Below are positions 3,165 to 5,962 of a stretch of DNA of 64,000 bases, one piece after another. The stretch is from positions 62,001-126,000 of the forward strand of contig NZ_LT592170.1 of NCBI RefSeq assembly GCF_900088825.1. The letters run 5' to 3'. A program made the translations under genes and the position numbers. The stretch's first letter is position 1, and each line of letters starts with the position of its first letter. Below the pieces are notes generated by a model. That model saw nothing but the letters and a program-made list of their open reading frames with translations. It had not been told where the DNA came from and made no database searches. Origin of the DNA: Thiomonas delicata. GTDB lineage: Bacteria; Pseudomonadota; Gammaproteobacteria; Burkholderiales; Burkholderiaceae_C.

Positions 3165-3677
3165 TCAAACCGAGGTGTGATCGTCCGGATCGTCGCCTGG
3201 ATCGAAGTCGGCCTGCGCGCCCCCGCGCTGCTTCATCGCCTGCCGCACCACGTCGGATGAAAAACCGCGGGCCTGCAAAAAACGCTGCTGCCGGGCGCGT
3301 TCCTGGGCGTTCGACGGCGCTGCGGGATGGCGCTTGCACAAGATACGCAACGCGCGCGCCACGTCGTCCGCCTGCCGCGCGATCAGCGGTGCGATGACCT
3401 CGGCAGTCAGCCCATGCGTCCGCAACTCCTGCTCGATGCGCTGGCTGCCGTACTTGACCTGGCGCCTGCGCACCAGGGACTCTGCAAAACGTCGCTCATC
3501 GAGCAGGCCCAGGGCCTGCAGTTCGTCCAGCAATATGCCGAGCGCGGTGGCGTCGGGCGGCTCCTGGCCCGGCTTTCTCACGCGCGAGAGCTTGCGCTCC
3601 AGTTCGGCGCGGCTGTGCTCGCGCAAGGCCAGCAAGCGCAGGGCGCGTGCCTTCAGGCTGGGCGTTGTCGTTTGCAT
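3165..3677 (-). CDS. recX: Regulatory protein RecX
   Basis: RecX binds RecA filaments and modulates recombinase and coprotease activity. The 170-residue protein is helical with repeated three-helix units typical of RecX: ALRLLALREHSRAELERKL at the N-terminus, then GLLDERRFAESLVRRRQVKYG in the middle, and RFLQARGFSSDVVRQAMKQ near the C-terminus. The start at 3677 (MQTTTPSLKARAL) fits homologues; longer in-frame extensions run into the recA 3' side. It lies 73 bases downstream of recA on the same strand and is probably co-transcribed with it. Confidence 0.93.
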   Translation of the reverse strand: MQTTTPSLKARALRLLALREHSRAELERKLSRVRKPGQEPPDATALGILLDELQALGLLDERRFAESLVRRRQVKYGSQRIEQELRTHGLTAEVIAPLIARQADDVARALRILCKRHPAAPSNAQERARQQRFLQARGFSSDVVRQAMKQRGGAQADFDPGDDPDDHTSV

Positions 3678-3750
3678 GTGCACCCGCCCGAGATGCGCTG
3701 CCTCGCCCCCGCATCGTCGTGCGAGGGGCGCCGGGGGCTGGCGCGCGGGC

Positions 3751-4800
<1,050 letters not shown>

Positions 4801-4845: not shown

Positions 4846-4857
4846 CTGTATATAAAA
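4846..4857. promoter_or_regulatory. recA-proximal half of the disrupted LexA (SOS) box
   Basis: CTGT at 4846-4849 followed by ATATAAAA (4850-4857). Joined to the ACAG at 5959-5962 on the far side of the insertion sequence, with one copy of the 8-bp duplication, this restores CTGT-ATATAAAA-ACAG. That is a perfect match to the CTGT-N8-ACAG LexA operator of beta/gammaproteobacteria. The half-site is 46 bases upstream of the recA start. A -10-like GATAAA (minus strand) lies just downstream of it. Confidence 0.85.
4850..4857. repeat. Left target-site duplication of the IS (ATATAAAA)
   Basis: An 8-bp direct repeat flanking the left inverted repeat. It is identical to 5951-5958. Eight base pairs is the duplication size expected of the IS1595 family. 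Confidence 0.93.
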
Positions 4858-4883
4858 AAGGGGTATCCACTTAGCTCCAGTGA
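4858..4883. repeat. Left terminal inverted repeat of the IS
   Basis: A 26-bp end, the exact reverse complement of 5925-5950. Confidence 0.93.
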
Positions 4884-4940
4884 CGCTTGGATGCTGGATA
4901 AATACCCAGTACATGCATTCTATGGCCGTCACCCAAACAT

Positions 4941-5909
4941 TCAAGCCTTTCGCACCACATCGCGGTAGGTCACCGGTGCAGTGGCGACGGCTTGTTGCAG
5001 CAACCGGTAGAACAACAGGCCCCGCGAGTTGGACGTGCGGCGGTTGAAACGGAACACGAACTCGTCCAGATAGGCATCCAGGTGTTCGGGCTGCACCGAG
5101 CCATGGTGGGTGCCCAGAATCCAGCGTTGCACCAGAGCGGCCACCCGATGCACTCCTGCCATCGAGACATGGGCGGGGACATCGGAGCCCAGCATGACCG
5201 TGCGCTGATGGATGAAGCCCAACTCCGTCAACGACCGATAGGCGGCCGAGCCGTCCGTGCGCACCTGTGCGCCTGGCTCGATGACCTCCTGCACGAACGG
5301 CATCACACACGAGGCGCAATCGTTGGCAATGCGGCGCAGGCGGATGCGGCCAAACCCCTTGGGCTCCAGCATCTCCACTGCCATCACCACCAGCACCTTG
5401 CTCGTGCTGCTCTTGCGCCCTTTGGGAGAGATGGGGGCTTGTCTGTCCGTGATGGACAGGTAGGTCTCGTCAACTTCGACCAACCCCCTGAGTTGCTCGC
5501 GGCCCGGGCGAACCATGGCACGACGCAGTCGGTGCAGCATGGTCCACGCGGTCTGGTAGCTGCCCAGCCCCAGCACGCGCTGCAACCCCAAAGCGCTCAC
5601 ACCTTGCTTCTGGTTGGTCAGGTACCAGGCCGCAGCCAGCCACACGCGCAGTGGCGTGCGGGTCTTGTCGAAGATGGTGCCGGCGGTCACCGAACTCTGG
5701 TGCTGGCAGCTCGGGCACATCAGCCGGCCACGCGTGGCGCGATAGGCCTGCCCAGCGCAGCCGCAGCGTGGGCAAACAAATCCGCTGGACCAGCGCAATC
5801 GTTCCAGGTACGTCAGACACGCCTCTTCGGTGCCAAACCAGTCGAGGAACTCGTTCCAGGTCTGTGGGTAGTCTTTTCCGGGCGTTGGCGCTAAAGTCTG
5901 GATATCCAT
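4941..5909 (-). CDS. IS1595-family (ISXO2-like) transposase
   Basis: A 322-residue DDE-type transposase. The N-terminal zinc ribbon uses C46/C49 (CPRC) and C65/C68 (CPSC). It is followed by a helical DNA-binding segment (residues 85-130). The ISXO2-like catalytic domain shows VEVDETY (D147) and VRTDGS (D219). The C-terminal signature HLDAYLDEFVFRFNRR (about residues 276-291) is typical of the family. The frame is full length with no stop or shift, so the enzyme is probably active. The ATG at 5909 lies 15 bases inside the right inverted repeat. Confidence 0.95.
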   Translation of the reverse strand: MDIQTLAPTPGKDYPQTWNEFLDWFGTEEACLTYLERLRWSSGFVCPRCGCAGQAYRATRGRLMCPSCQHQSSVTAGTIFDKTRTPLRVWLAAAWYLTNQKQGVSALGLQRVLGLGSYQTAWTMLHRLRRAMVRPGREQLRGLVEVDETYLSITDRQAPISPKGRKSSTSKVLVVMAVEMLEPKGFGRIRLRRIANDCASCVMPFVQEVIEPGAQVRTDGSAAYRSLTELGFIHQRTVMLGSDVPAHVSMAGVHRVAALVQRWILGTHHGSVQPEHLDAYLDEFVFRFNRRTSNSRGLLFYRLLQQAVATAPVTYRDVVRKA

Positions 5910-5924
5910 CCAGCTATTCTGCCT

Positions 5925-5950
5925 TCACTGGAGCTAAGTGGATACCCCTT
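5925..5950. repeat. Right terminal inverted repeat of the IS
   Basis: A 26-bp end, the exact reverse complement of 4858-4883. Confidence 0.93.
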
Positions 5951-5962
5951 ATATAAAAACAG
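5951..5962. promoter_or_regulatory. Distal half of the disrupted LexA box, with right target duplication
   Basis: ATATAAAA (5951-5958, second copy of the duplication) followed by ACAG (5959-5962). This half of the operator has been pushed about 1.1 kb away from recA by the insertion sequence. Confidence 0.85.

Follow-up and report, generated by a model that had tools for sequence, protein, structure and literature searches.

The recA locus and its split operator

The window, that is, the whole stretch of 64,000 nucleotides of Thiomonas delicata DNA that was analysed, carries recA and recX on the minus strand, with an insertion sequence (IS) upstream of recA. The half-sites and repeats listed below were read from the sequence, and at the recA-proximal half-site an intact box occupies the equivalent position in all 12 other genus genomes sampled.

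3165-3818, minus strand: recX
3751-4800, minus strand: recA, owner of the split operator (TIGR02012, 1.4e-172; Pfam RecA, 2.5e-145)
4846-4849: CTGT, recA-proximal half-site of the split LexA operator
4850-4857: ATATAAAA, recA-proximal copy of the 8-bp target duplication, equal to the operator spacer
4858-5950, minus strand: ISCsp2-like IS1595-family insertion sequence, 1093 bp, with two more near-identical copies in the genome
4858-4883: terminal inverted repeat on the transposase 3' side, 26 bp
4941-5909, minus strand: transposase, 322 aa, same direction as recA
5925-5950: terminal inverted repeat on the transposase 5' side, 26 bp
5951-5958: ATATAAAA, distal copy of the 8-bp target duplication
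5959-5962: ACAG, distal half-site of the split LexA operator

When the element is removed and the flanks are joined, CTGT-ATATAAAA-ACAG is obtained; CTGT-N8-ACAG is given as the LexA box consensus in a passage of PMC13393415. An earlier note on this DNA had claimed that the same 8 bp flank the element, that excision of the element with one repeat leaves a perfect CTGT-N8-ACAG box, and that the duplication coincides with the operator spacer, parting the half-sites by about 1.1 kb. This description proved right to the base: the repeats at 4850-4857 and 5951-5958 are exact, the rejoined box is perfect, and the element measures 1093 bp. The distance of 46 bp from the nearest half-site to recA, also given there, is true for the ORF start at 4800 (minus strand); translation may in reality begin at 4782, with the in-frame ATG of MVNAEKAK.

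The comparison of recA upstream regions that the note had proposed as a check bore the event out. The box is uninterrupted in all 12 other genus genomes sampled (11 with CTGT-N8-ACAG and one with CTGT-N8-CCAG), and in the nearest relative, G1400, it is identical to the rejoined box, CTGTATATAAAAACAG. The sequence split by the element is thus a CTGT-N8-ACAG box just upstream of the SOS gene recA and conserved in relatives. G1400 also has intact boxes at its orthologues of the two other loci hit in this genome, CTGTGTTTTTATACAG before the radical-SAM gene and CTGTATACAAACACAG before the Y-family polymerase gene. The element itself was sought in three other genus genomes (G032, G158, and G240) with no match reaching E 1e-30; the remaining genus genomes were compared at the recA site alone.

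The element and its copies in the genome

The IS1595-type assignment made in the earlier note agrees with the domain content of the transposase, which contains PF12762 (DDE_Tnp_IS1595, 1.5e-37) and an N-terminal PF12760 (Zn_ribbon_IS1595, 1.2e-14) and scores 188 bits against NCBIfam NF033547 (cut-off 75). The layout agrees as well: there is a single transposase gene, the 26-bp terminal inverted repeats of the window element are perfect, and 8-bp duplications are found at all three copies. Target duplications of 8 bp, a single transposase gene, and terminal inverted repeats are described for the IS1595 family in a passage of PMC8101967. The transposase is 82% identical to annotated ISCsp2 copies, found on plasmids such as pCNB, and the ends are similar. 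By the ISfinder convention copies of the same named IS share about 98% protein identity, and the window element is a related, distinct element. A profile search of solved structures with the transposase gave nothing convincing.

The genome contains three near-identical copies with six ends in all, and no solitary ends were found with up to three mismatches allowed. Each of the three copies interrupts a CTGT-N8-ACAG sequence precisely at its 8-bp spacer, and the three spacers differ. The second copy occupies CTGT-TCATTTAT-ACAG, with a PA0069-family radical-SAM gene 15 bp downstream, and the third occupies CTGT-ATAAATAA-ACAG in front of a gene for a Y-family DNA polymerase. A lexA gene with tandem boxes CTGGATAAAAATACAG and CTGTGCAGGATGACAG is present. 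Uninterrupted CTGT-N8-ACAG sequences number 13, which is not above the reversed control pattern; 12 of them, including the second lexA box, have at most 4 AT of 8 in the spacer, and the thirteenth is AT-rich there (6 of 8). Together with the three split boxes this makes 16 sites, 4 of them AT-rich, and all three insertions are among these 4 (p 0.007). Since the 12 GC-richer matches were not hit, CTGT-N8-ACAG is insufficient as a target, and an AT-rich spacer or bound LexA also matters. The sole remaining intact site with an AT-rich spacer is CTGTACAAAAACACAG (G000:C4:1353828-1353843), and the gene downstream of it is presumably mraZ, as named from its translation.

Target sites across the clade

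Copies were gathered by transposase similarity with the flanks disregarded, from a genome collection (80 loci, covering 80 of 106 relatives), from plasmids, and from whole-genome searches, and the element ends were placed from the element's own sequence. Of 91 items, two duplicates (L042 and L149) were dropped to leave 89 unique insertions, and L079 has no resolved end, leaving 88. Five loci (L011-L014 and L143), taken as the same contigs as L055, L052, L057, L071, and L077, were left out of the counts; the other Sphingobium places (L126-L130), L203, and some further plasmid matches also stand outside them. The clade in question is the ISCsp2 group and its kin, with transposases about 65-100% identical to that of the window element.

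We observed that 85 out of 88 resolved insertions have at most one mismatch per resolved side to CTGT or ACAG, and 61 of the 88 are perfect. Among the 44 two-ended insertions, scored over the eight CTGT/ACAG bases, 29 are perfect, 14 have one mismatch, and one has three; the 44 one-ended insertions, scored over four bases, comprise 32 perfect cases, 10 with one mismatch, one with two, and one with three. A perfect 8-bp duplication is present in 32 insertions, every one of which fits (21 perfect and 11 with one mismatch). The three misfits are L084, which has a decayed end and adjoins a PA0069-type gene, L096, a truncated element adjoining an error-prone dnaE, and L120, where the left side is perfect and the right end misassigned. 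A matrix of 35 reconstructed sites gives the target consensus TACTGTATATATATACAGTA, with an AT-rich spacer and TA flanks, which equals the consensus of LexA operators. Spacers have at least 5 AT of 8 in 78 of the 88 insertions, with a mean AT content of 78%, and CTGG and CCAG half-sites are tolerated. In the flanking host DNA (376,705 positions) there are 3 perfect sites and 85 within one mismatch (2.3e-4); under this background rate the perfect two-ended matches have a log10 P of about -136.

Repeated hits within single genomes and at single operators show the same pattern. All five copies in Polaromonas sp. P2-4 are perfect on both sides, and in Comamonadaceae PBBC1, with one side seen per copy, four of five are perfect and one has one mismatch. 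The operator of a DNA polymerase II gene was hit in both orientations in two Acidovorax records (L073 and L082), as was the operator of an IS91-type transposase on plasmids, at L120 (left side) and L124 (right side). Copies of ISCsp2 are likewise found at CTGT/ACAG boxes, on the left side in L120, the right side in L124, and both sides in L149.

Other IS1595 elements with clean duplications do not fit (0/21, with 4 to 8 mismatches of 8); among these 21 are plasmid copies in Methylocella, Methylomagnum, and Legionella. Box targeting by the IS1595 family as a whole is ruled out by these insertions of distant members, whose transposases are about 30-53% identical. The suggestion in the earlier note that AT-rich operator spacers are natural targets of the IS family thus stands in part: the target is the whole LexA-type operator (85 of 88), and it is that of one clade. 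We concluded that one clade inserts precisely and repeatedly into LexA-type operators, and the ISCsp2 group and its kin are very probably target-specific for LexA operators.

Several further observations were made in the survey. L044, kept in the insertion counts and absent from the 35-site matrix, lies at a contig start; its two flanks are exact reverse complements of each other, with a second element end after a box-like sequence; this is probably an assembly fold-back and possibly a nested insertion into an internal box. In G433, four copies (L133, L136, L138, and L139) of a non-targeting element about 52% identical, with similar ends (AAGGGGTATCCATG), lie in unrelated targets, and this element should be useful for mapping the residues behind target choice. 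In eight plasmids of varied hosts (H38-H45) the best match is a 311-base stretch from the 3' end of the element, with about 94% identity to ISCsp2; it could be a leftover or a small mobile derivative. Three loci come from viral contigs (L203, L204, and L205), of which L204 served as a tree and alignment row. There was no match in E. coli genomes searched with the DNA of the Enterobacter copy, or in phages searched with the window's transposase.

In a first transposase tree with 5 non-targeting rows, the box group forms one side of a branch (99/97). A tree with 29 non-targeting rows requires two changes for targeting when it includes L015, a degenerate row without the DETY catalytic motif. With L015 omitted one change is enough, and 54 clade members of the 82 rows lie on one side of a branch with SH-aLRT 99. 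Five rows with ends unresolved were labelled by similarity only, L079 as box and L141, L142, L145, and L204 as nobox. The clade elements outside subclade A, the subclade of the window element, are not one group on the tree: L086 and L131 are sisters of subclade A.

Genes next to the insertions

Neighbours were taken as genes reading away from the box with a start within 450 bp, and were named by Pfam, NCBIfam, and local clustering; a part was scanned, and some labels come from clustering with a scanned member. At least 45 of the 89 insertions have a neighbour from SOS control, DNA repair, or the IS91-type transposases reading away from the box, and in five of these an IS91-type transposase is the sole such neighbour. 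The genes include recA, lexA, UmuD-type peptidases, SRAP, PA0069-type radical-SAM proteins, and ImuA; Y-family polymerases (including dinB), error-prone DnaE, and DNA polymerase II; and DinG, a UvrD-type helicase, RadA, topoisomerases, DNA ligase, and integron integrase. Scanned neighbours without an SOS or repair link occur too (an OsmC-like protein, an aminotransferase, and antitoxins).

Two insertions, L059 and L131 (left sides), are at a lexA operator, with lexA ORF starts 28 and 11 bp from the element end; insertion there should change the autoregulation of the entire SOS regulon. The left sides of L081 and L056 lie before integron integrase genes, L056 by clustering only. Integron integrases are reported to be under SOS control (PMC3108266), and LexA binding at three ISCR promoters was shown by gel shift according to an excerpt of PMC13393415. 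The hand-assigned client gene in subclade A is only on the transposase 3' side in 15 cases, only on the 5' side in 3, and on both sides in 3 (p 0.0075). ISCR elements are relatives of IS91. Without the one-sided L120 and L124 the ratio is 14 to 2 (p 0.004), and when L044, L047 (whose client is a DUF5131 gene without a known SOS link), and two own copies are also omitted it is 10 to 2 (p 0.039). Clade elements outside subclade A are split 5 to 5, which does not differ significantly from subclade A (p 0.09). The bias of client genes to the transposase 3' side in subclade A is post hoc and suggestive only.

Internal LexA-like boxes and the control of recA

With a matrix built solely from target sites, two LexA-like boxes were found inside the element, and a promoter-like site faces recA.

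4894-4909: internal LexA-like box CTGGATAAATACCCAG (minus-strand 20-mer TACTGGGTATTTATCCAGCA), 19.8 bits, the element's best match to the target-only matrix
4917-4944, minus strand: outward promoter-like site TTGAAT-N16-TAGAAT toward recA, one found against 0.4 expected by chance
5898-5913: second internal LexA-like box CTGGATATCCATCCAG, covering the transposase start codon at the mirror position of the first, 8.8 bits

As a yardstick, the host's better lexA box scores 12.0 bits against 19.8 for the box at 4894-4909. In subclade A the look-alikes have the form CTGG-N8-CCAG or CTGG-N8-ACAG and lie about 37 bp inside each end. Among the 22 subclade-A elements scored, three own copies included, the right box (-51 to -53 relative to the right end) ranks first in 21 and second in L053; the left box (+37 relative to the left end) ranks first or second in 20. 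The other clade elements scored have neither box, save the left one in L086 and L131. Because 0.4 promoter-like sites are expected by chance, the case for this site rests on conservation: hexamers and spacing are kept in L043, L044, and L045 with different spacer letters, and L040, L041, and L046 have hexamer variants, while the site is not seen in the rest of subclade A. Its first hexamer overlaps the stop codon.

The earlier note had suggested that the strain probably lost direct LexA repression of recA. A simple loss of LexA control is doubtful, because the LexA-like box at 4894-4909 lies just downstream of the promoter-like site that reads toward recA from 4944 to 4917 on the minus strand. 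By bringing such a box behind such a site, the element may re-supply damage control. The native LexA box is destroyed and expected to be non-functional; recA would now probably be transcribed in part from the element's outward promoter-like site, through the element's LexA-like box, with the surviving downstream promoter half and read-through from the transposase gene as further expected sources. Judged from this arrangement of sites, recA may not have escaped LexA, and some SOS control of it may persist.

How the operator may be recognized

The geometry suggests an 8-bp staggered cut at both edges of the 8-bp operator spacer. Such a cut would turn the spacer into the target duplication and part the CTGT and ACAG half-sites. 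What guides the cut can be read in several ways, and we lean toward the transposase itself reading operator DNA as a palindrome. Direct reading is favoured by the internal look-alikes at mirror positions, by the tolerance of CTGG and CCAG half-sites, and by the site of L147. This element, a 66% relative on an IncC plasmid of Enterobacter hormaechei near mer genes, sits at CTGG-ACGAGAAG-ACAG, which scores 5.1 bits; from the translation the insertion reads as lying within an ISL3-like transposase frame, and would be the clearest non-operator insertion. Direct recognition draws mainly on L147 and the look-alikes, the latter being missing in other elements that hit the same sites, and at that strength it is somewhat probable.

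The main rival is guidance by LexA, in which the transposase senses operator-bound LexA, or LexA bridges the internal boxes and the operator; we regard it as possible. It would account for a target consensus that reproduces the complete LexA operator, AT-rich spacer and TA flanks included, and for the avoidance of GC-rich matches in the own genome, where the three insertions fall within the AT-rich sites. Precedents exist: res-hunter transposons are said to sense resolvase-occupied sites, and the authors of the ISAjo2 study suggest that XerC sitting on a dif-like site is contacted directly (passage of PMC10132070). Among 398 phylum genomes the matches outside the own genome are three, about 53% identical, which weakly favours guidance; this absence says little, because in the class sample also just 2 of 369 genomes beside the own carry the clade. 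Against guidance stand the L147 site, within an ISL3-like transposase frame and with its poor match to the target matrix, and a steric point: LexA contacts operator half-sites, and there, beside the points of strand transfer, it could hinder attack. Copies in Sphingobium and Rhodanobacter, hosts with another type of LexA box, would form a natural test of LexA dependence. At four of the five places on the Sphingobium plasmid the left flank is that of the copies next to an IS91-type transposase gene, and at the fifth a left end is missing; by the shared flank these copies look carried in and thus give no verdict. The Rhodanobacter copy (L103) has one end only.

A further reading is that the element finds the SOS regulon through LexA or its operator, splits the operators, and mimics them, its own LexA-like operators near each end, one of them behind an outward promoter, keeping the hit genes under SOS-type control and making the transposase damage-inducible. 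This is a conceivable reading, put forward with reserve.

It is very unlikely that the pattern reflects survivorship, that is, wide insertion after which only SOS-operator insertions persist as deregulated repair genes help the host. Many targets are indeed repair genes, and derepression of some could be beneficial; the register, accurate to a single base in 85 of the 88 resolved insertions, the sites at IS91-type transposase and integron integrase genes, and the 0/21 of other IS1595 insertions speak against it. Chance, or a plain preference for AT-rich 8-mers that met the recA spacer by accident, would agree with the mean spacer AT of 78% and was rejected as practically negligible on the background rate (log10 P about -136 for perfect two-ended matches) and the 3/3 own copies, the CTGT and ACAG outside the duplicated 8 bp being nearly fixed.

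Relation to known systems and meaning

With 85 of 88 resolved insertions placed precisely at one protein's binding site, the window clade works like the target-site hunters, without membership since its transposase family differs. ISAjo2 of the IS1202 family (dif and pdif hunters) is likewise a small IS with a precise site, beside that of XerC, but has another transposase type, a 5-bp duplication, and a fixed orientation 5 bp beside the site (passage of PMC10132070), whereas the window clade cuts inside the site, splits the operator, and inserts in either orientation. The Tn5053 family (res site hunters) also inserts at sites of a DNA-binding protein, with a recombination site as target and not a transcription operator. 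REP-targeting IS elements share a palindromic extragenic target (PMC1525189). The LexA-controlled ISCR transposases are IS elements tied to CTGT-N8-ACAG LexA boxes; there the box regulates the IS (excerpt of PMC13393415), whereas the window clade inserts into the box, in some cases at IS91-type transposase genes. In the relevant passage of a paper that names ISCsp2 (PMC8406286) the target is not mentioned, and the word LexA is absent from it. Among the matches listed in an open-licence library of 5.39 million papers there was no report of LexA or SOS boxes as an IS target.

Tn5053-family transposons are larger and carry multiple genes, and REP sequences are not known to act as operators of a regulon. 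That IS elements can target protein-binding sites is known in kind from the dif and res hunters, and what is new is the sort of target, a transcription operator; the reported targets found for site-specific IS are recombination sites or repeats. By landing in a transcription operator, a mobile element is linked to the circuitry for sensing DNA damage, which also drives mutagenesis and gene exchange. If the LexA-mimic reading is true, this would be a transposon specialised to inhabit and mimic the regulon of one transcription factor. The clade provides a natural set of regulon rewirings and a test case for transcription-factor-guided transposition, since the element can rewire recA, lexA, error-prone polymerases, integron integrases, and other transposases, operator by operator.
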